The notes under the pieces: model-generated
Seen by the model: the letters and a program-made list of their open reading frames with translations, nothing else
What the model was told of the DNA's origin: nothing
Databases searched by the model: none
NCBI GenBank assembly: GCA_028293765.1
Contig: JAQGOG010000057.1
Span: forward strand, 62,001 to 126,000
Length of the DNA stretch: 64,000 nt
Direction of reading: 5' to 3'
Source: Gammaproteobacteria bacterium
GTDB lineage: Bacteria > Pseudomonadota > Gammaproteobacteria > Steroidobacterales > Steroidobacteraceae
Translations under genes and position numbers: made by a program
Part shown: positions 7,750 through 27,378 of the stretch, one piece after another
Position numbering within the stretch: position 1 is the stretch's first letter
Layout: each line of letters starts with the position of its first letter

Positions 7750-8070
7750 ATGACGGGTATGGTTGCGCTCTATATTTTCATGCTCGCGGCCTTCACTGGC
7801 TACGAGGTCATCTCGCGCGTGCCGGTGATCCTGCACACGCCGCTGATGTCAGGGTCGAACTTCGTGCACGGCATCGTGCTCGTCGGCGCCATGGTCGCGC
7901 TGGGGAGCGCGCACACGACGTTGGAGAAGGTCATTGGGTTCATCGGCGTGCTGCTCGCCGCCGGCAACGCCGTTGGCGGCTATGTCGTGACGGAGCGCAT
8001 GCTGGAGATGTTCAAGTCGAGCGGGTCGCGCCAGACCGGCGCCCGTAGCGGCGGCAAGAGGGCGCACTGA
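7750..8070 (+). CDS. pntAB: NAD(P) transhydrogenase alpha subunit, membrane part
   Basis: This 106-residue hydrophobic protein corresponds to the C-terminal membrane portion of PntA. Three to four transmembrane helices are visible (MVALYIFMLAAFTGYEVI, FVHGIVLVGAMVAL, VIGFIGVLLAAGNAVGGYVV). The N-terminal VPVILHTPLMSGSNFVHGI segment is highly conserved in this subunit. It lies 30 bp after pntA with a GGGGTAAG ribosome-binding site. Its stop codon shares one base with the start of pntB, so the two are coupled. Confidence 0.95.
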   Translation: MTGMVALYIFMLAAFTGYEVISRVPVILHTPLMSGSNFVHGIVLVGAMVALGSAHTTLEKVIGFIGVLLAAGNAVGGYVVTERMLEMFKSSGSRQTGARSGGKRAH

Positions 8071-9458
8071 TGTCAGAAGTGTTGTCCCTGAACGCCCTGA
8101 TCGAGGTGAGTTACTTCGTCACGGCCGTCCTGTTCATCCTGGGGTTGAAGCGCATGAGCTCGCCCGTGACCGCCCGCAGCGGCATCCTTTGGGCCGGCGC
8201 CGGAATGCTCGTCGCCACCGCGGTCACCTTCGCCTATCCAGGAATGTCCAACTACGAGTGGATCATTCCCGCGATTCTCATCGGCGGCGGCTTCGCATGG
8301 TGGCGCGGGAAACGCGTTGCCGTGACGGACATGCCGCAGATGATCGCGCTCTATAACGGCATGGGCGGCGGTGCGGCCGCCGCAATCGCGGCGGTTGAGC
8401 TTTATCGCGGCGAAATGCAGGGGTATGCGAGTTCCACGCTGGCGGTCGTCGGCGGCATCATCGGCGCCGTCTCCTTCAGCGGGAGCGCCATAGCTTTCGG
8501 CAAGCTGCAGGGGCTGATCAAACGCAGTGTGCGCTTCAGCGGGCAGCAGGTCCTGAATCTGCTGCTGCTCGCCGCTGCCCTCGTGCTCGGCGGCATGGTG
8601 GCGTTCCATTTCAACGCCTCACCGGCCATCGTGACCGCATTTTTCGTGCTCGCGCTGATCCTCGGCCTCACGATGACTCTGCCGATCGGCGGCGCCGACA
8701 TGCCGGTCGTGATCTCGCTTTACAACGCCCTCACCGGACTTGCGGTCGGTCTCGAGGGCTTCGTGCTGAACAATGCGGCGATGATCATCGCAGGCACGGT
8801 GGTTGGCTCCGCCGGCACGCTGTTGACCCAGTTGATGGCGAAGGCGATGAATCGCTCGCTGGGCAACGTGTTGTTCTCGGGGTTCGGCGACACCGGAGCA
8901 GCCGCGACCGGCACCGTGACCGGGAGCCTCAAGCCGATCGAACCCTCCGATGCCGGCGTGATGATGGCCTTCGCGCAGAAAGTGATCGTCGTACCGGGTT
9001 ATGGGATGGCGGTGGCACAGGCTCAGCATAAGATCTGGGAGCTGTGTCAGCTGCTCATCGACCGCGGCGTCACCGTGAAATTCGCGATCCATCCGGTGGC
9101 GGGGCGCATGCCAGGGCACATGAACGTGCTGCTCGCCGAAGCTGGCGTCCCGTACGATCTGATCTCGGATCTGGATGAGATCAATGCGGAGTTCGAGACG
9201 GCCGACGTTGCGCTCATCATCGGGGCGAATGACGTCGTGAATCCCGTTGCGCGCACGGACAAGTCGAGCCCCATCTACGGCATGCCGATTCTCAATGCCG
9301 ACAAGGCGAAGAATGTCATCGTCATCAAGCGTGGACAGGGAGCCGGGTTCTCGGGCATCGAGAACGGACTGTTTTACCTCGACAACACCCGCATGCTTTA
9401 CGGGGACGCGCAGAAGGTGGGATCGGAGCTGATACAGGCCATCAAGGCCGTGGGCTGA
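8070..9458 (+). CDS. pntB: NAD(P) transhydrogenase subunit beta
   Basis: This 462-residue protein has about eight or nine N-terminal transmembrane helices followed by the NADP(H)-binding domain III. The nucleotide-binding segment VPGYGMAVAQAQHKIWEL and the downstream FAIHPVAGRMPGHMNVLLAEA and GANDVVNP motifs are characteristic. With PntA and PntAB it forms the proton-pumping transhydrogenase in the inner membrane. The ATG overlaps the preceding stop by one base (TGATG). Confidence 0.97.
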   Translation: MSEVLSLNALIEVSYFVTAVLFILGLKRMSSPVTARSGILWAGAGMLVATAVTFAYPGMSNYEWIIPAILIGGGFAWWRGKRVAVTDMPQMIALYNGMGGGAAAAIAAVELYRGEMQGYASSTLAVVGGIIGAVSFSGSAIAFGKLQGLIKRSVRFSGQQVLNLLLLAAALVLGGMVAFHFNASPAIVTAFFVLALILGLTMTLPIGGADMPVVISLYNALTGLAVGLEGFVLNNAAMIIAGTVVGSAGTLLTQLMAKAMNRSLGNVLFSGFGDTGAAATGTVTGSLKPIEPSDAGVMMAFAQKVIVVPGYGMAVAQAQHKIWELCQLLIDRGVTVKFAIHPVAGRMPGHMNVLLAEAGVPYDLISDLDEINAEFETADVALIIGANDVVNPVARTDKSSPIYGMPILNADKAKNVIVIKRGQGAGFSGIENGLFYLDNTRMLYGDAQKVGSELIQAIKAVG

Positions 9459-9490
9459 CCGCGGCTCGTACCGGCGGGGCACAATGACGA

Positions 9491-10453
9491 ATGCATAAGA
9501 TGAAAAGCGTGCGCAGTTTGCCGAAGTTCGCTCTGACAGTCGTGGCGATCGCCTGCTTGTCAGGGGCGCCCGCAGGCGCACGCACCGGGGCGCCCGCGAC
9601 GCCAGACCAGGTCAAAAAGCCGTTGACCTCGGCGGACGTACTCGCCGCCTCTACTCCCGCGGATTGGCGGCCGCTTGACCCGCAAAGCACGCTCTACATG
9701 GAGCTCCCCGCGGGGCGTGTGATCATCGAGCTCGCGCCGCAATTCGCTCCGCACTACGTGGCGAATGTCGAAGCGCTGGCGCGCGAGAGTTATTTTAGTG
9801 GGCTCTCGATAGAGCGAGTGCAGGACAACTACGTGGTGCAATGGGGCGACCCGGAGGGGAAGAAGCCCATTCACACGGCCCAACGCACGTTGGCGGCGGA
9901 ATTCGAGCGAAGCTCGCGCGGCCTGTCGTTCATGCCGCTGGCCGAAACGGACAGCTACGCGCCGGAGGTTGGCTTTTCCGACGGGTTCCCCGTCGCGCTG
10001 GATCCCAAGCTCGGCAGAGCATGGCTGATCCATTGCTATGGAATGGTCGGCGCGGGGCGCGACAACGATGTCGACAGCGGCGGCGGCACGGAACTCTATG
10101 CGGTCATCGGCCATGCTCCGCGACACCTCGATCGAAATGTCACGCTGCTCGGGCGCGTTGTGCAAGGGATGGAGATACTATCCTCCCTGCCGCGAGGCAC
10201 CGGCACGCTCGGCTTCTATGAAAAGCCAGAGCAGCGAGTGCCGCTCAAGTCGTTCAAGGTAGCCGCGGATGTGCCTGAGGCACAGCGAACTCCCCTTGAA
10301 GAGCTTCGCACGGATACCCAGATTTTCACTGAGTACATTGACGCGCGTCGTAACCGCCACGAAGAGTGGTTCAAGGTGCCCGCCGGCCACGTTGACGTCT
10401 GCAACGTACCGATACCGGTACGACCACGCACGACTACGACAACAGCGCACTGA
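9491..10453 (+). CDS. Periplasmic peptidylprolyl isomerase, cyclophilin type
   Basis: The 320-residue protein has a Sec signal peptide (FALTVVAIACLSGAPAGA) and a cyclophilin-like domain starting with STLYMELPAGRVIIELAP and containing NVEALARESYFSGLSIERVQDNYVVQWGDP. The domain is divergent: the usual FHRVI and QGGDP segments appear as IERVQ and QWGDP. A C-terminal extension of about 90 residues (from YEKPEQRVPLKSFKV) is outside the normal cyclophilin fold. It may help fold or mature envelope proteins. It stands alone between the pnt operon and the convergent DUF3106 gene. Confidence 0.88.
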   Translation: MHKMKSVRSLPKFALTVVAIACLSGAPAGARTGAPATPDQVKKPLTSADVLAASTPADWRPLDPQSTLYMELPAGRVIIELAPQFAPHYVANVEALARESYFSGLSIERVQDNYVVQWGDPEGKKPIHTAQRTLAAEFERSSRGLSFMPLAETDSYAPEVGFSDGFPVALDPKLGRAWLIHCYGMVGAGRDNDVDSGGGTELYAVIGHAPRHLDRNVTLLGRVVQGMEILSSLPRGTGTLGFYEKPEQRVPLKSFKVAADVPEAQRTPLEELRTDTQIFTEYIDARRNRHEEWFKVPAGHVDVCNVPIPVRPRTTTTTAH

Positions 10454-10481
10454 CTCAACGCGCCAGGAGTCAGACAGGCTT

Positions 10482-11033
10482 CTAGTGACCGGGCGGCCGC
10501 GATGGCCGCTGCATGTGCTGTTCCATGCGTTGCACCCGGTGATCGCGCATCCGCTGCAGCATCTCCTGGCGCTGCGCGGGAGTCGCGTTGTGCCACCGTT
10601 CGCGCAGCAGCCTGCGCCGGTCGGGCGGGAGCTGTTGAAACCTGTGGAAATTCTCCCGCACCGCCGCCTGCTCGTGCGGCGGCAGCGATTCGAATTTCTG
10701 CCAGCGCTCGCGCAAGGCGCCCCGCTGGTCCGGCGGCAGCGAATGCCAGCGATCGAAGCGCTGGCGTGCCAGGCCCCGCTGCTCCGGGGACATTCCGAGC
10801 CACCGCTGACTGCCTCGAGCGAGGGCCTGCTGCCGCTCGGACGGCAAAGTGCTCCATTGGTTTCCAAAACGCGAGAGCAACTTCTGTTGGTCCGGCGACA
10901 GGCTCGACCAGGGCACACTCGCGGGCGCGCTGGTGGGCGGCGGCGCTGGTGGGCTCGGTTCCTGCTGCGCAAAGGCGGGTGCCGCCGCTGCGAACAGCAG
11001 CGCAAGCACCAGCGAACGCCATTGGCTACTCAT
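10482..11033 (-). CDS. DUF3106 domain protein, exported, repetitive
   Basis: This 183-residue protein has a signal peptide (LVLALLFAAAAPAFA), a proline-rich linker, then a chain of similar units of about 21 residues with the pattern LPPxxRxxLRERWxxFxS. At least five are recognisable between residues 45 and 155. This pattern is typical of DUF3106, a family often found behind ECF sigma/DUF3619 genes. It is predicted to be periplasmic, helical and highly charged, like small envelope-stress chaperones, although that function is not established. It is the last gene of the four-gene module that begins with the sigma factor, and overlaps its upstream neighbour by 8 bases. Confidence 0.85.
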   Translation of the reverse strand: MSSQWRSLVLALLFAAAAPAFAQQEPSPPAPPPTSAPASVPWSSLSPDQQKLLSRFGNQWSTLPSERQQALARGSQRWLGMSPEQRGLARQRFDRWHSLPPDQRGALRERWQKFESLPPHEQAAVRENFHRFQQLPPDRRRLLRERWHNATPAQRQEMLQRMRDHRVQRMEQHMQRPSRPPGH

Positions 11034-11325
11034 TTTCTTTCACCCCGGGTGCGCTCGGCTTTGGGGCAGGCACGACGGGCTTGGCTTCGGCCACCGTCGG
11101 AGTCTTGACCACCTTGCCGATGTCTGTTTGCGAGAGATAGTCGATCCACGCGCCGTCGTCCGGCTGCACGGATTCGGACGGCGGATCGACACTGCCGAGG
11201 AATTCGAGCAGCTCACCATCGAGCGCCGGATCGGCAGCCTTTCGATTGTCGTCCGCGAGCGCGACGGCGGAGCCGGCGGTTAGCACCGCGAATGACAGCA
11301 GCAGGCGGAAGCGTCGATCCCGCAT
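11026..11325 (-). CDS. Small exported protein of an ECF sigma module
   Basis: This 99-residue protein starts at ATG 11325, overlapping the DUF3619 stop by one base. It has a signal peptide (LLLSFAVLTAGSAVA cut before DDNRKA), then a short acidic region with ELLEFLGSV and WIDYLSQ, and a Pro/Lys/Ala-rich tail (EAKPVVPAPKPSAPG) that could reach the cell wall. I do not recognise a named domain, but small proteins with an ELLEFLG segment are common in this position between DUF3619 and DUF3106. It is co-transcribed and probably translationally coupled. Confidence 0.75.
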   Translation of the reverse strand: MRDRRFRLLLSFAVLTAGSAVALADDNRKAADPALDGELLEFLGSVDPPSESVQPDDGAWIDYLSQTDIGKVVKTPTVAEAKPVVPAPKPSAPGVKENE

Positions 11326-11723
11326 CAGCCGTCGGCCCCCCCAGGCGAATCCGCCTGGTCCAGCGCCCACTCATAGAATGAGTTGTCTCCTCCTTCCATG
11401 AGATCGAGCCCTTCACTGTCCGCCAGCAGATCCAGATCTTCCACCGTCGAATGTGTGCCCTCGGCCACAGGCAACTCTATCTGCGGCTGGCGGTGCCATA
11501 GGACCATGGTCACGAGGAGCGCCGCTGCCGCCGCGCCCGCGGTCGGCACCAAGGTGAAGAATCGCCAGAAGGTAGGACGGCGCGCGGCTGCTTCCGCGAC
11601 CGCCGCCTGACGCGCCTGATTCAGGCGCGAGCGAATGCGGCCGTCGACGCGCAGCACGCCCTCATGGAGCATCGCCCGCGAGCGCTGCTCGAATTCAGTC
11701 AACCGTTCGCTGTCCGGGCTCAT
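11325..11723 (-). CDS. DUF3619-like membrane protein, probable anti-sigma partner
   Basis: This 132-residue protein has a cytoplasmic helical N-terminus (FEQRSRAMLHEGVLRVDGRIRSRLNQAR), one transmembrane helix (FFTLVPTAGAAAAALLVTMVLW, about residues 54-75) and an acidic C-terminus. The arrangement matches DUF3619 proteins. It begins with an ATGA overlap on the ECF sigma factor stop, the standard place for a regulator of that factor. No zinc-binding HC2 motif is present, so if it is an anti-sigma factor it is of a non-zinc type. Confidence 0.75.
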   Translation of the reverse strand: MSPDSERLTEFEQRSRAMLHEGVLRVDGRIRSRLNQARQAAVAEAAARRPTFWRFFTLVPTAGAAAAALLVTMVLWHRQPQIELPVAEGTHSTVEDLDLLADSEGLDLMEGGDNSFYEWALDQADSPGGADG

Positions 11724-16835: not shown

Positions 16836-17261
16836 GTGAACCCCGGAGAGATCTATCGCCACGACGCGTTCTACAGGAACGCCGCATCCGGTGCTTTGGA
16901 GCGTAAGTACTTCGTTATTCTCGCGCGAACTCCAGGAAATGACCTGGTCGCACGACTGCTCACAAGCCGGCCTCATGCGCGACCTGAAGCTCCAAAATGC
17001 TTCCACGGTCATCCGTACCCGGGATTCTTCTTGGGCGTTCTCGGAGAACCGTTAATCGCAAAATCCTGGGTGGACATGCGCTACCTCGGCGACTTGGATC
17101 CTTCGGATGCTGATCGCTTGATGACTCGAGGGGTGCTTGGCCGCGTCATCACTTTGGATGACGACGTACTCGCCGAACTCATCGAGTGTGTGGCAAACGC
17201 GGACGACACAACTAGGCTGCAGGAAGTGTCTATGCGCGATCAGCTCGCGCGATTGCGATAA
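16836..17261 (+). CDS. Small protein paired with Panacea gene, candidate toxin
   Basis: This 141-residue protein starts at GTG 16836 (NPGEIYRHDAFYRN). I do not recognise a named family with certainty. The N-terminal pattern (PGEIYRHDAFY, then KYFVILAR and DLVARLLTSR) has the short alternating beta strands of SH3-like barrels, as in MazF/PemK toxins. GKSWVD-like KSWVDMRYLGDLD and a helical C-terminus follow. No MazF catalytic residues can be assigned. It lies 26 bp after the Panacea gene on the same strand, in the position expected for the toxin of a Panacea toxin-antitoxin pair. Toxicity is inferred only. Confidence 0.6.
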   Translation: MNPGEIYRHDAFYRNAASGALERKYFVILARTPGNDLVARLLTSRPHARPEAPKCFHGHPYPGFFLGVLGEPLIAKSWVDMRYLGDLDPSDADRLMTRGVLGRVITLDDDVLAELIECVANADDTTRLQEVSMRDQLARLR

Positions 17262-17273
17262 CCCCCTTAGCAA

Positions 17274-19205
17274 TCAGCCCAGATAACGTCTCCAGCTGCC
17301 GAGACCTGTGATGTCTGCGGCGGTTGCTGTGGCGTAGGACTCGCAGACGAAGCCGGCGACTTGCTCGCCGTTCTCCAGTTCTACTTTGCCGATGCCGAGG
17401 GGTGCGGGGATGCCGGCAACGAAACTGCCGAAGCTGGCGGAAGGAACTGACCAGACTTCGAGCTCTATGGGGGCGCCGCCGCTGGCGACTCGTACCAGGC
17501 CGGGGCGATCTGGGGGGCCACCGGGGAGGGCATAGAACTTATACGCTGGGGCAGTGCGGGTGCGGCGGATCAGAAATGCGCCGCGGCTCGTGAGTTGGTG
17601 GTTGAGGGGCAGGCCTTCCATGTGAGCGCCACAGACTGCAACGGCGATGCGGTCATCGGCGCTAAGGATGTCGGTCGAGGCGACGCGACTGTCTTTGGTG
17701 TCGACCTTGGCAGTGGCCCGGCTGTTAAAGCTGCCTTCCAGTGCTTTGGATGTCGCGGCCTGCGGCCCTGGCGTTGGAACAACCCCGGAGGCGTAGTCGG
17801 TTGCAACGTGCGCCGGAAGATCGAGACCGAGCGCGCCCAGCGAAGTTGGTTTCGCTCGATGCACCTTGTCGGCCAGAAACAGCAGGTCCGCGTCGGCGCC
17901 GGCTCGGCCTACCAGGGTCAGGCCGAATGGCAGGCCGTCGCTACGGAAGCCGGCCGGCACCGCTACGGCGGCCAGGTCGAGAAGGTTGACGAAATTAGTG
18001 TAGTACCCGAGATTCGAATTCAGGCGGATCGGGTCGGCATCGACTGCCTCGATGCGATAAACCGTGCCGGCGGTCGGCGTGACGAGCACGTCGATTGTGG
18101 ACCATACGCGGTCCGCCGCACGCCGCAGCTCCATCAGGCGGTATTGCGAGCGAAAGGCATCAGCCGCTGTGGCATTGCGGCCACCCGATATGATCTGCCG
18201 GGTGATTGGATGCATGGACTGCGGTTGCCGCTCCAGGAAGTCTCCCACTGCGCAGTAGCGTTCGGCCACCCACGGACCTTCGTATAGGAGCCTCGCTGTT
18301 GCGCGGAAGGGGTCGAAGTCGATTTCCACACGGCGGCCGCCGAGGGCTTCCAGCCGGGTTACCGCCGCTTCAAAGAGGTGCGCGTATTCGCTATCGCCGA
18401 AAAACTCGAGTTGATCGGCGCGCGGAACCCCGAAGCGAAAACCCAGAGCGGCTAGCGGGCCCGTCGCGGCCAAGCCTCTCAACGACACCGCCTTCGAGTA
18501 CGGGTCGTCAGGATCGAACCCAGCAGCTACCGCATACACGCGCGCGGCATCGTCCGCCGTCAAAGCAAAAATCGACACGCAGTCGAGGGAACGACACGCC
18601 GGGACGACACCGCTCGTGCTGAGCGCTCCGCACGTGGGCTTGAGGCCAACGATGTTGTTGAACGCCGCCGGCACCCGGCCCGATCCCGCCGTGTCCGTTC
18701 CCAACGAGAAACTCACGAGCCCCGTTGCCACCGACACCGCCGACCCGGAGCTGGACCCTCCGGAAATGTAGGCGCTGTCGAAGCTGTTCTGACAGGCGCC
18801 ATGCGGCGAGCGCGTCCCGACCAGTCCCGTCGCAAACTGATCGAGATTCGTCTTGCCGAGCGGAATCGCTCCCGCTTCGATGAGCTTACGCACGACGTAC
18901 GCCGATTCCCCCGGCGTATAGGCATAGTCAGGGCAGCCCGCCGTGGTGGGCATTCCCCCGAGATCGATGTTGTCCTTGATGGCAAACGGAACACCGTAGA
19001 GGGGCAGCGCTTCCGGAGCACGCGCAGCAAGAGCCCGCGCAAATCCAAGGACCCGGTCGCGAGCCAATCGTGTTATCCAGACGCGCCGATCCGGCGCCCG
19101 CGCGATGCTCGCGAGCACCTGCTCCATGACATCGACCGGCGAGAAGCGGCGTGCGCGATAGCCATCGAGAAGGCCTGAAATCAGCAATGGGTTGGGTAAA
19201 GACAT
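17274..19205 (-). CDS. atzF: Allophanate hydrolase
   Basis: The amidase-signature domain has the Ser-cisSer-Lys triad region: FAIKDNIDLGG (Lys), ISGGSSSGSAVSVA (cis-Ser) and GTDTAGSGRVPAAFNN (nucleophile Ser). The C-terminal domain beginning VAVCGAHMEGLPLNHQL is specific to allophanate hydrolases. It splits allophanate to ammonia and CO2, the last step after carboxylation of urea or guanidine. ATG 19205 with GGA nine bases upstream is preferred; a TTG at 19220 would overlap the carboxylase stop. It is the last gene of the four-gene guanidine catabolic operon and converges on the candidate toxin gene with a 12-bp gap. Confidence 0.95.
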   Translation of the reverse strand: MSLPNPLLISGLLDGYRARRFSPVDVMEQVLASIARAPDRRVWITRLARDRVLGFARALAARAPEALPLYGVPFAIKDNIDLGGMPTTAGCPDYAYTPGESAYVVRKLIEAGAIPLGKTNLDQFATGLVGTRSPHGACQNSFDSAYISGGSSSGSAVSVATGLVSFSLGTDTAGSGRVPAAFNNIVGLKPTCGALSTSGVVPACRSLDCVSIFALTADDAARVYAVAAGFDPDDPYSKAVSLRGLAATGPLAALGFRFGVPRADQLEFFGDSEYAHLFEAAVTRLEALGGRRVEIDFDPFRATARLLYEGPWVAERYCAVGDFLERQPQSMHPITRQIISGGRNATAADAFRSQYRLMELRRAADRVWSTIDVLVTPTAGTVYRIEAVDADPIRLNSNLGYYTNFVNLLDLAAVAVPAGFRSDGLPFGLTLVGRAGADADLLFLADKVHRAKPTSLGALGLDLPAHVATDYASGVVPTPGPQAATSKALEGSFNSRATAKVDTKDSRVASTDILSADDRIAVAVCGAHMEGLPLNHQLTSRGAFLIRRTRTAPAYKFYALPGGPPDRPGLVRVASGGAPIELEVWSVPSASFGSFVAGIPAPLGIGKVELENGEQVAGFVCESYATATAADITGLGSWRRYLG

Positions 19206-19216
19206 TTGAATTCCAA

Positions 19217-22200
19217 TCAAAGCGGTCGCAATACGAGCAGGGTTTCACCGGCTGACACGGGTCGACCGCGGGCGCAGCGAACTTCGACGATCTCTCCCGC
19301 CTCCTCGGCCGTAATCGGGATTTCCATCTTCATCGCCTCCACGATCAAGAGGTCGTCGCCAGCGCGTACCCGTTTTCCCGGCTCGACGTCGATTTGCCAG
19401 ACGCTCCCGGCGACAGGAGAGCTAACCGCGATGCATCCTTCAGGAACGCTCGGTCCGGCGACTATCTCCCCCGAGCCCAGCGGGTCGCTGACATTCGGGC
19501 AGTCATCCGCCTCCGACTCGTTCCAGCGCTCGCGTTCGGCCTCGAATGCGGCCTGCTGGCGTGCTTTGAACTGCGCAATGGATGGTGCGTTTTCCTCCAG
19601 AAACGCACGGTAGTCCCTGAGCCGGAGCGTGGTGTCCTCCATGTCCAGCCGGAATCGACCGTAAGGAAAGTCCTCGCGCATGTTCGCAAGCTCTGCCGCG
19701 CTCACGGGGAAAAAACGAATTTGATCGAAGAACCGTAGCAGCCACTGCTTGCCGTCACGAAAGTCGACCGTCCGCCGCTGGCGATTCCACATCTGCACCG
19801 TACGGCCGACCAACTGGTATCCGCCGGGACCTTCCATGCCATAGACGCATAAGTACGCACCTCCAATCCCCACTGCGTTTTCCGGCGTCCAGGTACGCGC
19901 GGGGTTGTATTTGGTCGTGACCAAACGGTGTCGCGGATCGAGCGGGGTCGCCACGGGTGCGCCGAGATAGACATCGCCGAGCCCCATGACGAGGTAGCTC
20001 GCCTCGAACACGATTCGCCTCACATCCTCGCTGGAGTCGAGGCCATTCATGCGACGGATGAATTCGATGTTGCTCGGACACCAGGGCGCGTCCTTGCGCA
20101 CGGATTGCGTGTACTTGTCGATCGCGAGTTGCGTCGCCGGATCGTCCCATGACAACGGCAGATGTACGATGCGGCTCGGCACTTCCAGCCTGTCGACCGG
20201 CGGCAACTCGTCTTCCGCAAGCAGCAACAGCTCCCGCAGAGCGGGCTGCGACAGCATGCGGCTGTCGAAGTGCACCTGAAGGGAGCGAACACCCGGCGTG
20301 AGATCGATGATTCCCGGCTCGTCGCGCCTCGCGAGCCATTCCATCAGCGCATGGACGCGGAAACGCAGCTCGAGCTCCAGAACCGGGCGGCCGTACTCGA
20401 CGAGCAGATAATCCTCGCCCGAGTGCCGATAGCACACGGGGATCCGGCCCGTGTCTTCCAGCCGCTGCAACACCGGCGATGCGTGCGTCGACACTCGCTG
20501 GAACCGGATCGTGTCGCCCGGCCGTAACTGTCCGATCTTCCACAGATCCGACCGTGTGATGACCGCCGGACATACGAAGCCGCCGAGACTCGGGCCGTCC
20601 GGGCCGAGGATGACCGGCATGTCGCCGGTGTAATCGATCGCGCCGATCGCGTAAGCGTTATCGTGAATGTTGGAAGGGTGCAGTCCCGCTTCGCCGCCGT
20701 CCGCCCGCGCCCATTGAGGCTTGGGGCCGATGAGGCGAACGCCGGTCCGGCTCGAGTTGTAATGCACTTCCCAGTCCGTCGCGAAGAAGGTGCGGATGTC
20801 TTCGTCCGTAAAGAAATCCGGAGCACCGTGCGGACCATAGGTGACCGCGACGCTCCAATGCTTCCCGTACGTGGGGATTTGACTCTGCGGCAGCGACACG
20901 CAGCCCTCGAGATGCGAGCCGGAACGCGCCAGCCGCAACACGTCGCCCTTGCGGAGCGCCCGGCCGACGTGACCGCCAAATTGTCCGAGCGTGAAGGTTG
21001 AACGGCTGCCCAGGTACTCGGGTACGTCAAAGCCGCCCCTCACCGCGAGGTAGGCCCGCTGTCCTGGACCATCGATGCTACCGAGTGCGAGGACACTCCC
21101 TGCCGCGACCGGCAGCGGCGTCCAGAAAGGGACGGAACTCCCATCGAGGGTGGCCTCCATACTCGCGCCGGTCAGTGCAATGACACTGTCGCTGCCAAAC
21201 TGCAGCGCGGGCCCTTTCCCGGTGAGTTCCAACCCGGCCGCGCTCGTCGGGTTGCCGACGATGCGGTTGGCGAGCCGGAAGGCGAGGCCATCCATTGGAC
21301 CGGAAGGCGGCACGCCAACGTTCCAATACCCGAGTCGTCCCGGGGAATCCTGCACCGTTGCCTGCGTCCCCGGCCGGAGCACCTCGACTGACAAGGGCCG
21401 AAATTCGACACCCGCCAGGAACCTCGTGAACTGCTGTCCTTCCCGAAAGACGGCCGTATTCAAAACCGTTCGCAGGTATTCGAGATTGGTCTCGATACCG
21501 TACACGCGGCTGCTGGCCAACGCGGCTTGCAGTTGCTCCAGCGCGAGCTCGCGCGTCGGCGAGTGCGCAATAATCTTCGCGAGCAGCGGATCGTAGAAGG
21601 AGGAGACTTCCGTGCCCGTCTCGATCCAAGTGTCGACACGCACGCCCGTAGGAAGTGCCACCAGGGAAAGAGGTCCGCTCGACGGCCGGAAGTTACGGCT
21701 CGGGTCTTCGGCATAGAGCCGCACCTGGATTGCGTGGCCGTTCGGTTCATGGCGGTACGCGGCGAGATTGGGAGGCTCGTCCGCGGCAACGCGGATCATC
21801 CACTCGACCAGATCGACGCCCGTGACCTCCTCGGTGACTCCATGCTCCACCTGCAGCCGCGTGTTGACTTCGAGGAAATAGAACTCACTGGTTGGCACGT
21901 CGTAGACGAACTCCACCGTGCCGGCCGATCGGTACCGGACAGCACGCCCCAACCGTGTAGCTGCTGCAAACAGCCGCTCACGGGCATCCTGCGAAAGCCC
22001 AGGCGCGGGTGTCTCCTCGATGACCTTCTGGTTCCGCCTCTGCATCGAGCAGTCGCGCTCCCCCAGTGCGATGACGTTGCCGGCGCCATCGCCAAACAGC
22101 TGCACCTCTATGTGCCGCGCGTGCTCGATATACTTTTCGAGAAACAGGCCACCGTCGCTGAAGTTGCTGCGCGCGAGACGCTCGACCGATGCGAAGGCGC

Positions 22201-22732
22201 CGCTGAGATCCGCCTCATTCCGACACAACTGCATGCCGATACCGCCGCCGCCAGCGGTGCTTTTGAGCATGATCGGGTAGCCGATGCGCACCGCCTCCAC
22301 AAGCGCTTCAGCCAGCTCCTTCAGGAGCCCGCTGCCCGGCAACAGCGGTAACCCCTGCTCTTGGGCCAGCGCGCGGGCGCGATGCTTGAGTCCGAAGTCA
22401 CGGATCTGACCGGGGGTGGGGCCGATGAACGTGATGCCGGTCTGCGCGCACGCCTGCGCGAAGGCGGCGTTCTCGCTCAAAAAGCCGTACCCAGGGTGAA
22501 TCGCGCGGGCGCCGGTGGCGCGTGCCGCTTCGATGAGCTTGTCCTGCCGCAGATAACTCTCGGCCGCCGTCACGCCGCCAAGGCATACGGCCTCATCGGC
22601 CGAAGAGACGTGAAGCGAGTGCCTGTCCGCGTCTGAATAGACGGCTACCGCACCAATCCGCATGCGACGCAACGTGCGCTCGATGCGGCACGCTATGGCG
22701 CCACGATTTGCGATGAGGACTTTTTCGAACAT
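19217..22732 (-). CDS. uca: Biotin-dependent urea/guanidine carboxylase
   Basis: This single 1171-residue chain has a biotin carboxylase/ATP-grasp domain (from [20 protein letters not shown]; residues about 1-450), a carboxyltransferase built from KipI/KipA-like halves (about 460-1070, including [20 protein letters not shown] and [13 protein letters not shown]) and a C-terminal biotin carrier domain with [10 protein letters not shown] carrying the biotinyl Lys. Enzymes of this family carboxylate urea or guanidine. The two guanidine riboswitches and two DUF1989 genes in this locus favour guanidine as the real substrate. The ATG has AAGAGG eight bases upstream and sits right after a guanidine-II riboswitch. 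Confidence 0.94.
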
Positions 22733-22756
22733 GCCGCGATCCTCTTAGGTCTTTGC

Positions 22757-22804
22757 GCCGGGTCGTCCCGGCCTTTTCACGAGGATCTGCGGGTCGTCCC
22801 GCAG
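22757..22804 (-). promoter_or_regulatory. Guanidine-II (mini-ykkC) riboswitch
   Basis: On the minus strand two perfect hairpins each close an ACGA tetraloop. The first is CTGCGGG-ACGA-CCCGCAG (22804-22787, 7-bp stem) and the second GCCGGG-ACGA-CCCGGC (22772-22757, 6-bp stem), with a 14-nt linker. Twin ACGR-loop hairpins are the defining feature of the guanidine-II class. The ribosome-binding site AAGAGG (22746-22741) and the carboxylase ATG (22732) follow at once, so control is probably at translation initiation. It lies inside the operon, between the DUF1989 gene and the carboxylase. Confidence 0.92.
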
Positions 22805-22816
22805 CCAGAATGGGCG

Positions 22817-23482
22817 CTAGGAATCCGGGCCCCTGGCGGCATCCCAAACCATCAGGCGTACTGGTGTCGGGTTGTAGGCGTTGCAAGGATTATTGAGTTG
22901 CGGGCAGTTCGAGATCAGCACGATCACGTCCATCGCGGCACGCATCTCGACGTAGCGGCCGGAGGCAGAGATGCCGTCGGCGAACGTTAGCTGCCCTCCC
23001 GGGGTGACCGGCACGTTCATGAAGAAGTTGATATTGCTCGGCAGATCTCGCTTGGTGAGACCGAAATCCGTGCGCGCCAACGCAGTCAGAAAGTTGTCCC
23101 GGCAGCTGTGCATGTGCCGCTTCTCCAGAGAGTAGCGCACGGTGTTGCTTTCGGCGGAACACGCACCTCCCAGCGTGTCATGCCGCCCGCACGTGTCCGC
23201 GACGATATCGAGCATCACGTTGCCACTGTTTGACAGCAAACGCGTGCCGGCCATCAGGTACAGATTCCCCTGCGCCCGGATAGTATCCGAGGCGCTGTAG
23301 CGCTCTTCGATATCCGCAGCGCTGAAGAACAACGTATCCACTGCCTGGTTACCCTCGAGGTCCAGGATGCGCAGGAACTGGCCTTTGCGGACGATGCCCA
23401 TCCACGGTTCGCCCGCCGGCACGATCTCGTCCGACACCGCATCGCGCGAATCCAGCGTGCTTTCGATCATCCTGAGAGTCAT
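22817..23482 (-). CDS. DUF1989 protein, urea carboxylase-associated protein 2 type (carboxyguanidine deiminase subunit)
   Basis: This 221-residue DUF1989 protein contains the family core [17 protein letters not shown], with a conserved Cys-xx-His-Asp likely to bind metal, and the end motif [13 protein letters not shown]. The pair of DUF1989 proteins next to guanidine carboxylase has been identified as carboxyguanidine deiminase (CgdA/CgdB), which turns carboxyguanidine into allophanate. I cannot tell which letter applies to which gene. The start overlaps the previous stop by four bases (ATGA), so the two subunits are made together. The guanidine-II riboswitch follows its stop. Confidence 0.9.
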
Positions 23483-24213
23483 GAAACGTACAACATTTCA
23501 GTGTTGCGAAAGCCGCGCTCATTCTCGGGGCAGCGGATGCGACAAGGATCGTCCTGCGCCACGGGGCCGGTCGCGAAGGCGGTGAGGCGCACGTACCGCG
23601 GGTGGTAGGCAGGTTCCGGATCCAACGGATGCTGGCACGTCGCGAACGCGACCAGAGCGTGCATCTCGAAACGCAGATCGACGTAGTTGCCGGCTCGCGA
23701 AGCTCCCGGCCGGAAGTACATCTGCCCCTCGTGGCCGACCGTCACCTTGCTGAAGAAATTCACGTTCGCGACGATGTCACGCTTACCCAGCCCGTATTTA
23801 CCCAGCTCGTTGAGCAAGCTGTCATACCCGTTCTTGTAGACGCCATTGCGCTGCTCCTGGAAACGAGTCGCGCCGTACTTGTCCGCGACCATCGCTGCAT
23901 TCGACACTCCGGACATCGTGTCGTGCCAGCCGCAGGTGTCTTCCGTGAGAGAACAGAGAATACGGCCCATGTCCGAGTAACACACGCAGCCCTTGGTCAG
24001 ATACGCCGTGTGTTGCGCCTTCAGAGTGTCAGCCATGTTATAGCGTTCGAGGCGGTCCTCCTGGTTGTAGAATAGCGCGGAGACGTTCGCGCCTCCGTCG
24101 ATATCGGTCAGCCGCAGCGTCGTGCCGCGGCGTACAACCCCCGACCAGTGACTACCGCTGTGCAGATGTTCTTCCCAGAGTACTGGGCCCGCCGTGCGGG
24201 TATCAGTCGTCAT
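23479..24213 (-). CDS. DUF1989 protein, urea carboxylase-associated protein 1 type (carboxyguanidine deiminase subunit)
   Basis: This 244-residue DUF1989 protein is paralogous to the next gene. It has [28 protein letters not shown] and the metal-site segment [17 protein letters not shown], and ends with [17 protein letters not shown] ribosome-binding site lies six bases before the ATG at 24213. It is first in the minus-strand operon DUF1989-DUF1989-carboxylase-allophanate hydrolase. By family knowledge it forms the carboxyguanidine deiminase with its partner. The divergent importer operon starts about 400 bp away. Confidence 0.9.
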
Positions 24214-24413
24214 CGCGTACTCCCCATGCGTGCCAGGCGCTGCAAAGGGTATACCAACTCAATTACGGCAAGTTAGCGCATGCGCTCGCTCCAAAACGGG
24301 GCACAATCCTGACGCGCCGCTGCGAAAGAGTGCGCGACGGCCTCTCGAACCCGCGCTTTGGCCCTGGTTTGGAGCGGCATACGCTTTGCATCCCTCACGT
24401 TCGCAATGTGCAT

Positions 24414-24527
24414 CTAGGGTTCCGACTCGCGCGGCCGTTCACGGTCGTGCCAGTGTCTGGTCCGAGAGAGGCAGTCCGGCAGACGCAGGCGTCAGCCGGA
24501 TACACGGCGGGACAAAAGCCCGGGAGA
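24414..24527 (+). promoter_or_regulatory. Guanidine-I (ykkC) riboswitch
   Basis: Conserved blocks of the class appear in the right order: CTAGGGTTCCG (24414-24424), GTCTGGTCCGAGAGAGGCA (from 24454), and ACACGGCGGGACAAAAGCCCGGGAG (24502-24526), here named in pieces: ACACGGCGGGA then CAAAAGCCCGGGAG. The spacing between the blocks fits the known three-stem aptamer that binds guanidinium. It lies about 95 bp upstream of the substrate-binding protein gene of the importer, so guanidine should raise importer expression. The expression platform is the hairpin region that follows. Confidence 0.95.
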
Positions 24528-24548
24528 TCGTACAGGCGCGCCTGCGCG

Positions 24549-24605
24549 CATCCGATCCCCGTCGGATGTGTCGTGGCGAGCCTCTCGCATCGGATCCGAC
24601 GACAC
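24549..24605 (+). promoter_or_regulatory. Probable expression platform of the guanidine-I riboswitch
   Basis: Between aptamer and ATG several pairings compete. CATCCGA (24549-24555) can pair with TCGGATG (24562-24568). GTGTCGT (24568-24574) can pair with ACGACAC (24599-24605), enclosing GCGAG/CTCGC (24576-24588). TCCGAT (24551-24556) can instead pair with ATCGGA (24589-24594). No U-run follows, so this is not a classical terminator; the last arm ends four bases before the AGGA ribosome-binding site of the importer gene. Translational control is therefore more likely, but is inferred. Confidence 0.45.
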
Positions 24606-24620
24606 CTCAGGAAAGCCGCA

Positions 24621-25718
24621 ATGCCCGCAACCCCCCGGAAGCTCGCCAGAACACTCGCCACCGCGTTCGTCTGCGCCGCCGTTCTTTGCGCCGCTACGGT
24701 CTTCTCCAAGCCGGCCAGCGCAGTCGAGAAGAAGAACTTCAAGGTTGCCTGGAGCATCTACGTCGGCTGGATGCCCTGGGACTACGCCGTCCAGAGCGGC
24801 ATTCTGAAGAAGTGGGCCGATAAGTACGGCATCACGATCCAGTTCACCCAGATCAACGACTACGTCGAATCGATCAATCAATACACGGCGGGAGGCTTCG
24901 ACGCCTGCGCCATGACGAACATGGATGCACTGACGATTCCGGCGGCAGGAGGCGTGGATTCCACGGCCCTCATCGTCGGCGACTTCTCCAACGGCAACGA
25001 CGGCGTCGTACTGAAGGGCAAGGGCAAGAAACTCGCCGACATCAAAGGCCAGTCGATCAACCTCGTCCAACTTTCGGTGTCGCACTACCTGCTGGTTCGA
25101 GGCCTCGAAACGGTGGGACTCAAGGAGCGCGACGTCAAGGTCGTCAACACGTCCGACGCCGATATCGTCGGCGCCTATGCGGCCCCCGGAACGACCGCCG
25201 TGGTCGCGTGGAAACCGCAGCTCGCGCAGATCATCGCGGCGCCCAGCGCCAGCGAGGTGTTCGATTCGAGCCGGATCCCGGGTGAGATCACGGATCTCTT
25301 CATCGTGAATACGGCGACGCTCAAAGCGAATCCGAAACTCGGCAAAGCGCTGGTGGGCGCGTGGTACGAGACGCTGGCCATCATGTTCGGCAAGGGCCCG
25401 CGGACGAGCGCCGCCCTCGCATCGATGGCGAAGGCGTCGGGTACCGATGTGGCGGGCTTCAACAGCCAGCTGGCGACGACGAAGATGTTCGTCACTCCCG
25501 CCGAGGCGGAGACGTTCGCCGCCAGCGCCAACTTCATCAAGATCATGGATCTCGTGCGCACGTTCTCTTTCAACCACGGCTTGCTCGGCCAGGGAGCGAG
25601 ATCGCCCGACGTCGTGGGGATGGCGTTCCCGGGCGGCAAGACGCTGGGCAATCCGCAAAACGTCAAGCTGCGCTTCGATCCGACCTACCTGCAGCTCGCC
25701 GTGGAAGGCAAGCTTTAG
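24621..25718 (+). CDS. ABC transporter substrate-binding protein (NitT/TauT type), probable guanidine binding
   Basis: The 365-residue protein has a signal peptide (ALATAFVCAA-like LATAFVCAAVLCAATVFSK) and a periplasmic-binding fold of the NMT1/SsuA type, with VAWSIYVGWMPWDYAVQSGILKKW and IQFTQINDYVESINQYTAGGFDACAMTNMD-like segments. ATG 24621 has AGGA nine bases upstream. The guanidine-I riboswitch before it, and the divergent guanidine-degrading operon, point to guanidine or a close derivative as ligand. Generic annotation would be nitrate/sulfonate/taurine, which does not suit the context. Confidence 0.9.
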   Translation: MPATPRKLARTLATAFVCAAVLCAATVFSKPASAVEKKNFKVAWSIYVGWMPWDYAVQSGILKKWADKYGITIQFTQINDYVESINQYTAGGFDACAMTNMDALTIPAAGGVDSTALIVGDFSNGNDGVVLKGKGKKLADIKGQSINLVQLSVSHYLLVRGLETVGLKERDVKVVNTSDADIVGAYAAPGTTAVVAWKPQLAQIIAAPSASEVFDSSRIPGEITDLFIVNTATLKANPKLGKALVGAWYETLAIMFGKGPRTSAALASMAKASGTDVAGFNSQLATTKMFVTPAEAETFAASANFIKIMDLVRTFSFNHGLLGQGARSPDVVGMAFPGGKTLGNPQNVKLRFDPTYLQLAVEGKL

Positions 25719-25761
25719 AAATGAAATCGCTTGTCAGGCCGGCCCTCGATGCCACAGTCGC

Positions 25762-26577
25762 ATGCCGAGGTTAATCAATCGGCATCCCGGCCGTGGCCCC
25801 GCCCTCATGCTCGGGCTGGTGCCTTTCATAGTGCTCATATTCGCCTACCTCTTGGGCTCCCACGTACGGCTGGCCGCGAATCCCGATGACAAGCTGTTGC
25901 CGACACCGTCCACGCTGATGTCGACTCTGCACACCTATGCGGCCGAGGAGGATGTCCGCAGCGGCCAGGTGCTGTTCTGGGTGGATACGATGGCGAGCCT
26001 CGAGCGCATCCTGATTGCACTGGTGCTGTCAGCTTCCATCGGACTTGCGTTCGGTCTGGCGATCGGTGCGCTGCCCGTGGTGAGAGCGGCTCTTGCGCCC
26101 TTCGTCGCCGTGGTGTCGATGATTCCGCCGCTGGCGATCCTGCCGATCCTGTTCATCGTGCTCGGACTGGGTGAGGTCGCGAAAATCGCGCTCATGACGC
26201 TCGGCATCGCTCCGGTCATCGTGCGCGATCTCGCGTTACGCGCGGCCGAACTGCCTTCCGAGCAGCTCATCAAGGCGCAGACCCTCGGTGCGTCCTCCTG
26301 GCAACTCGTCACCCGCGTCATCCTCCCTCAGATGTGGCCGCGGCTGATCGACTCATTGCGACTGTCGATGGGCTGCGCGTGGTTGTTTCTCATCGCCGCG
26401 GAGGCGATCGCCTCAACGGAAGGGCTCGGGTACCGGATCTTTCTCGTGCGGCGGTATCTCGCGATGGATGTGATTCTGCCGTATGTCGCCTGGATCACGT
26501 TGCTGGCCTTTCTGATGGACTGGGCGCTGAAAATCCTGCGCTCACGGGCGTTCCCATGGACTGACATGAGTCGCTGA
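25762..26577 (+). CDS. ABC transporter permease (guanidine uptake)
   Basis: This protein of about 271 residues has six transmembrane helices and the BPD_transp_1 EAA-type loop in LIKAQTLGASSWQLVTRVILPQMWPRL. The N-terminal helix MLGLVPFIVLIFAYLLG and the central SMIPPLAILPILFIVLGLGEVAK are typical of SsuC/TauC-like permeases. ATG 25762 is used because earlier starts would run into the preceding gene's coding sequence; there is no strong ribosome-binding site. Middle gene of the riboswitch-controlled importer operon. Confidence 0.9.
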   Translation: MPRLINRHPGRGPALMLGLVPFIVLIFAYLLGSHVRLAANPDDKLLPTPSTLMSTLHTYAAEEDVRSGQVLFWVDTMASLERILIALVLSASIGLAFGLAIGALPVVRAALAPFVAVVSMIPPLAILPILFIVLGLGEVAKIALMTLGIAPVIVRDLALRAAELPSEQLIKAQTLGASSWQLVTRVILPQMWPRLIDSLRLSMGCAWLFLIAAEAIASTEGLGYRIFLVRRYLAMDVILPYVAWITLLAFLMDWALKILRSRAFPWTDMSR

Positions 26578-26580
26578 CGC

Positions 26581-27378
26581 ATGGCTCGCGTGACCGTCAA
26601 GGGCTTGTGGAAGCGGTACGGGGACACCGTAGTGCTCGAGAACATCAATCTGGACTTTGCGGATCATGAATTCGTCACGATTGTCGGCGCGTCGGGCTGC
26701 GGAAAGACGACGTTCCTGCGAATTCTGCTCGGCATGGAGCAGCCTTCGAAGGGACGGCTGCTGATCGACGGGGAGCCCGTGTCGCCCGAGCCCGGTCCGG
26801 ATCGCGGCATCGTCTTTCAGCGCTATTCGCTGTTTCCGCATCTGACGGTGCTGGGGAATCTCATCCTCGGGCTCGAATTGCGACGCTCGCGGGTGCTGGG
26901 AAAGCTTTTCGGAGCGCGGCGGCGGGAAGCCATCGTGCGCGCCGAAAGCATTCTGGAGGCGGTGGGGCTTGCGGGGGCCCGGGACCGGTATCCGGCGCAG
27001 CTCTCTGGCGGCATGCAGCAGAGACTCTCCATCGCGCAGTCGGTCATCGGTGAGCCGCGAATCCTGTTGCTCGACGAGCCATTCGGCGCGCTGGATCCGG
27101 GGATCACAGCGGACATGCACAAGCTTATCCTCGACCTTTGGGCCGCCAATGCCATGACCATCTTCATGGTCACGCACGATTTGAAGGAAGGATTCGAGCT
27201 GGGCACACGGCTGCTAGTGTTCGACAAGCTGCGGCACGACCCGCAAGCCCCTGAAGCGTATGGGGCAAAGGTCACGTACGACATCCCGCTGCGGAGGCTC
27301 AAGAACGACCGGGAGCGCCAGCGGCTGGCGATCGTGGAAGCATCGGGTTCAGAGCCGTCGTACGCTCCTGCGGGCTAG
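26581..27378 (+). CDS. ABC transporter ATP-binding protein (guanidine uptake)
   Basis: The 265-residue ATPase has Walker A GASGCGKTT, Q-loop GIVFQRYSLFPHLTV, signature LSGGMQQRLSIAQ, Walker B ILLLDEPFGALD and the H-loop in FMVTHDLKEG. It is closest in pattern to SsuB/TauB-like proteins. It starts three bases after the permease stop. It energises the importer formed with the two upstream genes. A short C-terminal extension follows the core domain. Confidence 0.95.
   Translation: MARVTVKGLWKRYGDTVVLENINLDFADHEFVTIVGASGCGKTTFLRILLGMEQPSKGRLLIDGEPVSPEPGPDRGIVFQRYSLFPHLTVLGNLILGLELRRSRVLGKLFGARRREAIVRAESILEAVGLAGARDRYPAQLSGGMQQRLSIAQSVIGEPRILLLDEPFGALDPGITADMHKLILDLWAANAMTIFMVTHDLKEGFELGTRLLVFDKLRHDPQAPEAYGAKVTYDIPLRRLKNDRERQRLAIVEASGSEPSYAPAG

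Follow-up and report, generated by a model that had tools for sequence, protein, structure and literature searches.

A Guanidine-II Riboswitch ahead of a Guanidine Carboxylase Gene in a Cluster with Divergent Sigma54-Type Promoter Sites: a Predicted Nitrogen and Guanidine AND Gate

In the 64,000-nucleotide (nt) stretch of gammaproteobacterial DNA analyzed here (Steroidobacteraceae; assembly GCA_028293765.1, contig JAQGOG010000057.1, positions 62,001 to 126,000; hereafter the window), a Guanidine-II (mini-ykkC) riboswitch aptamer was identified on the minus strand, inside a catabolic operon and directly ahead of the gene for a guanidine carboxylase (gca). We regard it as likely that this element switches on the translation of gca and that, together with two sigma54-type promoter sites, it makes the cluster an AND gate. 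Such a gate would require nitrogen shortage for transcription and guanidine for expression of the importer and the carboxylase, and the guanidine genes of the window probably need both conditions. A Guanidine-II element before gca inside an operon has already been published for Vreelandella boliviensis, Raoultella, and others; the new part of the finding is the lineage-specific divergent layout with its sigma54 sites.

Identification of the Guanidine-II Aptamer

The original prediction, made from the letters alone, had placed a mini-ykkC riboswitch at 22755-22806, with two ACGA hairpins on the minus strand between a DUF1989 gene and a carboxylase and a ribosome-binding site just after them. 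The window was scanned with Rfam cmscan against 4227 families, using the Rfam gathering score as the threshold. The covariance model RF01068 was found to align end to end (model positions 1-48) with a score of 46.2 bits against a cutoff of 32, which bears out the mini-ykkC identity, and the predicted span agrees to a few bases with the Rfam match (22805-22758). Both hairpins are present as P1 and P2 (Table 1), and GAGGA at 22744-22740 lies downstream of P2. The DUF1989 label is correct (PF09347), the more specific names being UAAP2/CgdB and UAAP1/CgdA (TIGR03424 and TIGR03425). The TIGR and Pfam families, together with residue D700 of the carboxylase, also confirm the position inside an operon ahead of a guanidine-type carboxylase. 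The cgdB stop codon (22819-22817) is 12 nt before P1, and P2 ends 24 nt before the carboxylase ATG.

Guanidine-II riboswitches are recognized by two GC-rich hairpins with ACGR loops and a linker of 7-40 nt (PMC7544219). In the window, P1 and P2 are GC-rich, both carry ACGA loops, and the linker is 14 nt long; the adjoining TIGR02712 carboxylase has an aspartate at the position of Kluyveromyces lactis residue 1330. From its sequence and gene context, 22758-22805 (-) is assigned as a Guanidine-II riboswitch, a further case of a published class in a published position. Only two Rfam families scored above the gathering threshold in the window, RF01068 (-) and RF00442 (Guanidine-I, +). In a search of the genome, the matches listed contained one Guanidine-II (the window copy) and two Guanidine-I elements, with 150 of the 1470 first-look candidates scored for RF01068.

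It is scarcely credible that chance produced two GC-rich ACGA hairpins in this GC-rich region between genes. Both hairpins are indeed short and rich in GC, and the folding energy of the leader is ordinary (z -1.4; 15 of 200 shuffles fold equally well), but the family assignment rests on the family model and not on folding energy, the match reaches an E value of 5.5e-6 when the 64 kb are searched with the full Rfam library, and the same element stands before gca in a same-genus relative and in 18 other loci of the family.

The carboxylase, of a type usually annotated as urea carboxylase, was aligned with the urea amidolyase of K. lactis, for which the chain numbering of 5i8i was taken as the enzyme numbering. 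Residue D700 aligned with N1330 and D920 with D1584. Aspartates at positions 1330 and 1584 are the mark of guanidine carboxylases (PMC11410670), and urea carboxylase has an asparagine at 1330 (PMC12186494). Judged by these marker aspartates, the window enzyme is of the guanidine rather than the urea type. The window was compared with a set of 80 carboxylase loci, denoted by L numbers; an aspartate occupies the 1330 position in 79 of the 81 carboxylases, and an asparagine is found in L071 and L089. There is no cgdAB within the stretch retrieved for L089. Locus L071, from a metagenome-assembled Hyphomicrobium sp. genome (carboxylase at 8001-11603), has the asparagine despite the presence of cgdAB, Guanidine-I, and Guanidine-II.

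Predicted Masking of the Carboxylase Shine-Dalgarno Sequence

A translational ON switch for gca appears to be the best reading of the element, because the linker of 14 nt can base-pair with the Shine-Dalgarno (SD) sequence of the carboxylase. Without guanidine, GATCCTC of the linker, aided by the 3' arm of P1, would pair with GAGGATC; with guanidine, the two ACGA loops would kiss, the linker would be withdrawn, and gca would be translated from the freed SD. The complementarity is read directly from the letters; guanidine binding, loop kissing, and the direction of the switch are inferred. An anti-SD linker is the published model for Guanidine-II (PMC9094411, PMC7544219).

The start codon of gca is the ATG at 22732-22730, and GAGGA is 7 nt away from it. 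The duplex of the P1 3' arm and linker with the leader was calculated to be -19.4 kcal/mol (z -4.1), and none of 300 shuffles was as good. When both hairpins were formed and the linker was held free, opening of the start region became 3.2 kcal/mol cheaper, a gain matched by 0 of 40 linker shuffles (p 0.02). The complementarity is kept in L164, of the same genus (duplex z -3.0; masking test p 0.05), and in L105, of another genus (duplex z -3.3), with altered letters around the SD.

Other results count against this model, above all as a general rule. L105 reaches only p 0.10 in the linker-specific masking test, and masking at p <= 0.05 was found in 5 of the 20 leaders inside the window's family and in 1 of the 36 carboxylase-type leaders outside it. 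The duplex test was positive for 10 of 56 carboxylase-type leaders and for 1 of 19 leaders of SMR exporter genes. In the window, the linker-SD helix can form alongside both P1 and P2 at the level of secondary structure, and switching must therefore rest on tertiary kissing. The anti-SD model is thus strong here but not general. When linkers and leaders were swapped across 33 loci, no pairwise coevolution was found (permutation p 0.98 for the linker only and 0.30 with the arm). The opening gain with the linker held free has a median of 0.96 kcal/mol for carboxylase-type (n = 56) and 4.18 kcal/mol for SMR-type leaders (n = 19; Mann-Whitney 4.6e-5), a comparison that leaves out L124, L130, L137, L139, and L016 (the simple pattern failed) and L126, L138, and L144 (hairpins unparsed). 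This difference was dropped as a linker effect, since shuffled SMR linkers give nearly the same gain (mean 3.96).

The weak masking outside the family would also be expected if the aptamer is real but the SD is unmasked, with gca translated mainly by ribosomes arriving from cgdB and the hairpins serving as a spacer or a block to re-initiation. The SDs of carboxylase-type leaders are weaker than those of SMR-type leaders (median -3.9, n = 56, versus -6.5 kcal/mol, n = 19). The gap between cgdB and gca, counted on loci L020-L099 only, is 1-5 nt in 9 of 9 measured loci with Guanidine-II before cgdA and has a median of 18.5 nt, with a wide spread, in loci without a listed Guanidine-II (n = 40); with Guanidine-II between the two genes, the median is 87.5 nt (n = 24). 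We consider this explanation unlikely for the window, where the linker is a nearly ideal anti-SD, the SD is good (-5.8 kcal/mol), and the gap of 84 nt is long for re-initiation.

An action on transcription, through termination or the access of Rho, is less likely still. A block in the middle of the operon could open the downstream mRNA to Rho, but a search around 22700-22810 found no terminator-like hairpin followed by a run of T, and P2 is followed by the SD and not by a U-tract. The original prediction had also held that the carboxylase can be controlled separately from the upstream deiminase genes. The position within the operon on which this claim was based stands; separate control itself is only plausible, there being no terminator and a linker able to mask the SD. 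The prediction does not touch on two further features of the deiminase genes here, their lack of a recognizable guanidine sensor and their place behind a sigma54-type promoter site. With a translational ON switch for gca as the preferred reading, the effect may also extend downstream. The start of atzF is either an ATG at 19205-19203, 11 nt past the gca stop codon, or a TTG that overlaps this stop; with a start 11 nt behind gca, the switch may therefore also reach atzF by translational coupling.

Sigma54-Type Promoter Sites in the Divergent Region

Promoters of the sigma54 type follow the consensus TGGCACG-N4-TTGCW, in which the GG and GC dinucleotides are 10 nt apart. Sites were scored out of 12 against this consensus, with a threshold of 9. 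In the divergent region of the window, one site faces cgdA and a second faces the transporter genes, the latter stopping 12 nt short of the Guanidine-I aptamer (Table 1). The two are the only matches to the strict pattern YGGYAYRNNNNTTGCW in the 64 kb, for which 0.27 would be expected; at least two matches were obtained in 3 of 100 shuffles. The catabolic transcript most likely begins at 24241-24256, which would give a leader of ~17 nt before cgdA, and the divergent transporter transcript, with its Guanidine-I leader, would begin at 24375-24390. No sigma70-type promoter was found at 17000-25000, compared with 1.3 expected in shuffles.

Both sites are conserved within the window's family. Among the first 13 family regions, a site of at least 9/12 faces cgdA in 13 and the transporter in 13, and a site of at least 10/12 does so in 10 and 11 regions, respectively; when such regions are shuffled, 10-15% of the shuffles attain a best score of 9. 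In the 12 regions that have a Guanidine-I aptamer, the transporter-facing site lies upstream of it with its end 11-14 nt away. Four further divergent regions have the transporter-facing site in 4 of 4 and the cgdA-facing site in 1 of 4, which brings the totals for all divergent family regions to 17/17 and 14/17. The genome encodes two RpoN proteins (TIGR02395) and one NtrC over the cutoff (TIGR01818). We infer from these observations that the nitrogen control of transcription is probably exerted through sigma54, with NtrC as the activator.

Several points tell against this assignment. The strict pattern was composed after the sites had been seen, each window site is weak by its score (p 0.097 versus shuffles), and there are 38 sites scoring at least 9 in the window. 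No cgdA-facing site was found in L103, L171, and L179 (3 of the 17 divergent family regions), and an NtrC-like palindrome, GCAC[CT]N5[AG]GTGC, is present in 4 of the 13 family regions and absent from the window. In L168, L169, L172, and L180, an NtrC-like palindrome GCACTCAAGC[A/G]GTGC is conserved between the two sigma54-type sites.

Sigma54-Type Sites at Guanidine Riboswitches beyond the Family

Genomes of 79 of the 80 comparison loci were searched for both riboswitches (L081 was left out). The search for Guanidine-I gave 70 matches, with 54 inside loci, and 51 leaders in 50 loci were kept; L043 and the second match of L064 were left out for wrong mapping in a motif check, and L053 was left out because it is near a contig start. 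The 51 leaders include L074, which is below the Rfam cutoff, and L023, L032, L033, and L049, which a stricter motif filter had missed. A sigma54-type site was found at most 100 nt upstream in 40 of these 51 leaders of carboxylase loci, and the background rate of such sites was 3.0% in random segments and 1.4% in shuffles. The 11 leaders without a site are six from Nitrosomonas/Nitrosovibrio (L032-L035, L039, and L046), two from cyanobacteria (L029 and L044), and L052, L074, and L093. Cyanobacteria, as a phylum, are not known to possess sigma54. In a class-wide set, 26 of 30 Guanidine-I loci have a site, the second Guanidine-I copy of the window's genome included, and L190, L191, L203, and L208 do not; these 30 loci may overlap the 51, and their aptamer starts are motif-placed and approximate.

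The Guanidine-II leaders of SMR exporter genes had a site scoring at least 9 in 0 of 19 cases (Fisher 8.6e-10 versus 40/51), with the sequences related to one another, so that the p-values overstate independence. A further weakness of this contrast is that it mixes riboswitch classes, setting Guanidine-II exporter leaders against Guanidine-I carboxylase leaders. On balance, we lean toward the view that guanidine-assimilation clusters are generally AND-gated, by nitrogen through sigma54/NtrC and by guanidine through riboswitches, and that exporters have no nitrogen gate. In the window's family, this gate would be split over two divergent sigma54 promoters: Guanidine-I would gate uptake, Guanidine-II would gate the ATP-consuming carboxylase, and the deiminase would be under nitrogen control alone.

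The published RNA-seq transcriptome of an ntrC mutant of Burkholderia cenocepacia H111 fits a nitrogen gate on the carboxylase cluster. The transcript of the "urea carboxylase" BCAS0272 was down by log2 -6.0 in this mutant, and 95% of its top 150 genes were also sigma54-regulated (PMC5491218). I35_7283-7286, which include a related ABC protein and an "aminomethyltransferase," were counted as down-regulated, these two without a fold change (PMC5491218). This NtrC/sigma54-dependent cluster is likened to that of the window by its published text only; it was interpreted as serving urea use, and the word guanidine is absent from the paper (PMC5491218). A literature search by title and start of abstract, with subscription papers mostly outside its reach, found no paper joining guanidine riboswitches to nitrogen control. 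Word searches of the accessible text turned up no passage on Ntr or sigma factors in PMC12508155; in PMC12186494, they turned up none on "sigma," nitrogen limitation, or nitrogen starvation.

Gene Order and Divergent Layout

The features of the window are collected in Table 1. The order on the minus strand is cgdA, cgdB (4-nt overlap), Guanidine-II, gca, and atzF, with cgdA and cgdB predicted to lie upstream on the same transcript as gca and without a recognizable guanidine sensor of their own. No Rfam riboswitch was found on the minus strand upstream of cgdA in a search down to E 5. A sub-threshold match to a worm snoRNA before cgdA (22.5 bits, cutoff 48) was taken as chance.

Table 1. Features of the guanidine cluster in the window
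Feature	Position	Strand	Evidence or remark
Allophanate hydrolase atzF	17274-19220	(-)	TIGR02713 805.5 bits
Guanidine carboxylase gca	19217-22732	(-)	TIGR02712 1855.9 bits; usually annotated "urea carboxylase"
Carboxylase Shine-Dalgarno region GAGGATC	22738-22744	(-)	sequence
P2 GCCGGG-ACGA-CCCGGC	22772-22757	(-)	6 bp, ACGA loop
Linker ATCCTCGTGAAAAG	22786-22773	(-)	14 nt between P1 and P2
Putative anti-Shine-Dalgarno GATCCTC (last P1 base + linker)	22781-22787	(-)	perfect complement of GAGGATC
P1 CTGCGGG-ACGA-CCCGCAG	22804-22787	(-)	7 bp, ACGA loop
Guanidine-II (mini-ykkC) riboswitch aptamer	22758-22805	(-)	RF01068, 46.2 bits (cutoff 32), E 5.5e-6 for whole window
cgdB/UAAP2, carboxyguanidine deiminase subunit (DUF1989)	22817-23482	(-)	TIGR03424 343.2 bits
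cgdA/UAAP1, carboxyguanidine deiminase subunit (DUF1989)	23479-24213	(-)	TIGR03425 349.7 bits
Sigma54-type -24/-12 site facing cgdA, TGGTATACCCTTTGCA	24241-24256	(-)	9/12, strict-pattern match
Sigma54-type -24/-12 site facing transporter, CGGCATACGCTTTGCA	24375-24390	(+)	9/12, strict-pattern match
Guanidine-I riboswitch aptamer of transporter operon	24403-24528	(+)	RF00442, 81.4 bits (cutoff 63)
ABC transporter substrate-binding protein, urea-carboxylase type	24621-25718	(+)	TIGR03427 543.7 bits vs 333.9
ABC transporter permease, open frame with true start inside	25447-26577	(+)	PF00528
ABC transporter ATPase	26581-27378	(+)	PF00005

A Guanidine-II match was found in 26 of the 217 genomes of the window's family. 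Among the 20 family loci with Guanidine-II before gca (window included), the transporter genes are divergent from cgdA in 17; L170 was not judgeable, and in L107/L108 and L173 no transporter is seen before the contig ends. With the transporter divergent from cgdAB-gca, Guanidine-I, found in 12 of the 17 divergent loci, is confined to the transporter side. It is below the cutoff in L164, L178, L103, L171, and L179, and in L164 there is none even down to E 5. The transporters of L103, L171, and L179 are more distant (27-45% identical). As far as the sequences allow a sensor to be recognized, Guanidine-II would be the only guanidine sensor on the catabolic transcript in this family, with cgdAB having none. 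In L164 (6500-6760), from the same genus, both sigma54-type sites and Guanidine-II are kept, and the transporter leader past the site is only ~30 nt.

Position of Guanidine-II across Carboxylase Loci

In the comparison set, Guanidine-II matches were taken at E 0.001 or better. The 79 genomes gave 53 matches, and 36 of these mapped inside loci: 25 directly before gca, 10 before cgdA, and 1 elsewhere. For this set of genes, lying inside the operon is therefore nothing unusual. Three of the 25 (L027, L070, and L079) score 30-31 bits, under the Rfam cutoff. The cgdB gene is just upstream in all 24 pre-gca loci where it is visible, the 25th, L079, beginning near a contig edge. The loci with Guanidine-II before cgdA are L067, L071, L076, L084, L085, L092, L093, L094, L097, and L057, and 9 of these 10 are recorded as alphaproteobacterial. 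Several loci for which no match was listed have weak look-alikes, judged by eye as two ACGR-like hairpins, in the gap from cgdB to gca; those of L024, L025, L026, L030, L074, and L091 were compared with Rfam, and none was above the cutoff. Because of such sub-threshold look-alikes, the pre-gca counts may be low.

Comparison with Known Systems

Outside the window's family, the usual order when both riboswitches are present runs in one direction: Guanidine-I, transporter, cgdA, cgdB, Guanidine-II, and carboxylase. The operon of V. boliviensis shares with the window the ABC transporter, cgdAB, gca, atzF, Guanidine-I, and a Guanidine-II copy between cgdB and gca (PMC12508155), and this copy was demonstrated to bind guanidine by in-line probing (PMC12508155). 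However, Guanidine-I stands ahead of the entire V. boliviensis operon with cgdAB behind it (PMC12508155), whereas in the window it is on the divergent plus-strand transcript, and the mgdH/mgdL genes located between gca and atzF in V. boliviensis (PMC12508155) have no counterparts there in the window. Raoultella terrigena, Erwinia rhapontici, and Klebsiella michiganensis similarly have Guanidine-I over the importer and Guanidine-II immediately before the carboxylase and allophanate hydrolase genes (PMC12186494), but their deaminase genes are grouped with the importer under Guanidine-I (PMC12186494), and those of the window are split from it. The Guanidine-II element of Escherichia coli sugE likewise has two ACGR hairpins and a putative anti-SD linker and was proposed to be a translational ON switch (PMC9094411). 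That element drives the exporter SugE (PMC9094411), and the element in the window would drive a carboxylase inside an operon.

The riboswitch itself is one more case of a published architecture, and its setting may matter more. The promoter evidence suggests two controls on the use of guanidine as a nitrogen source, nitrogen status acting at the promoter and guanidine acting on the RNA, with no nitrogen gate on detoxification. If true, the AND gate would explain how bacteria supplied with ammonium avoid wasting ATP on guanidine, and it makes directly testable under which conditions guanidine serves as a food and under which it acts as a poison.

The second Guanidine-I element of the genome (L116, 138-5259) is located at 1129-1245 and scores 93.4 bits. 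It follows a gene for a carbon-nitrogen hydrolase and precedes genes for a TonB-dependent receptor and a cytosine/purine-type permease, and a sigma54-type site (11/12) is found ~11 nt upstream of it. This locus may possibly serve the uptake of a guanidino compound across the outer membrane.
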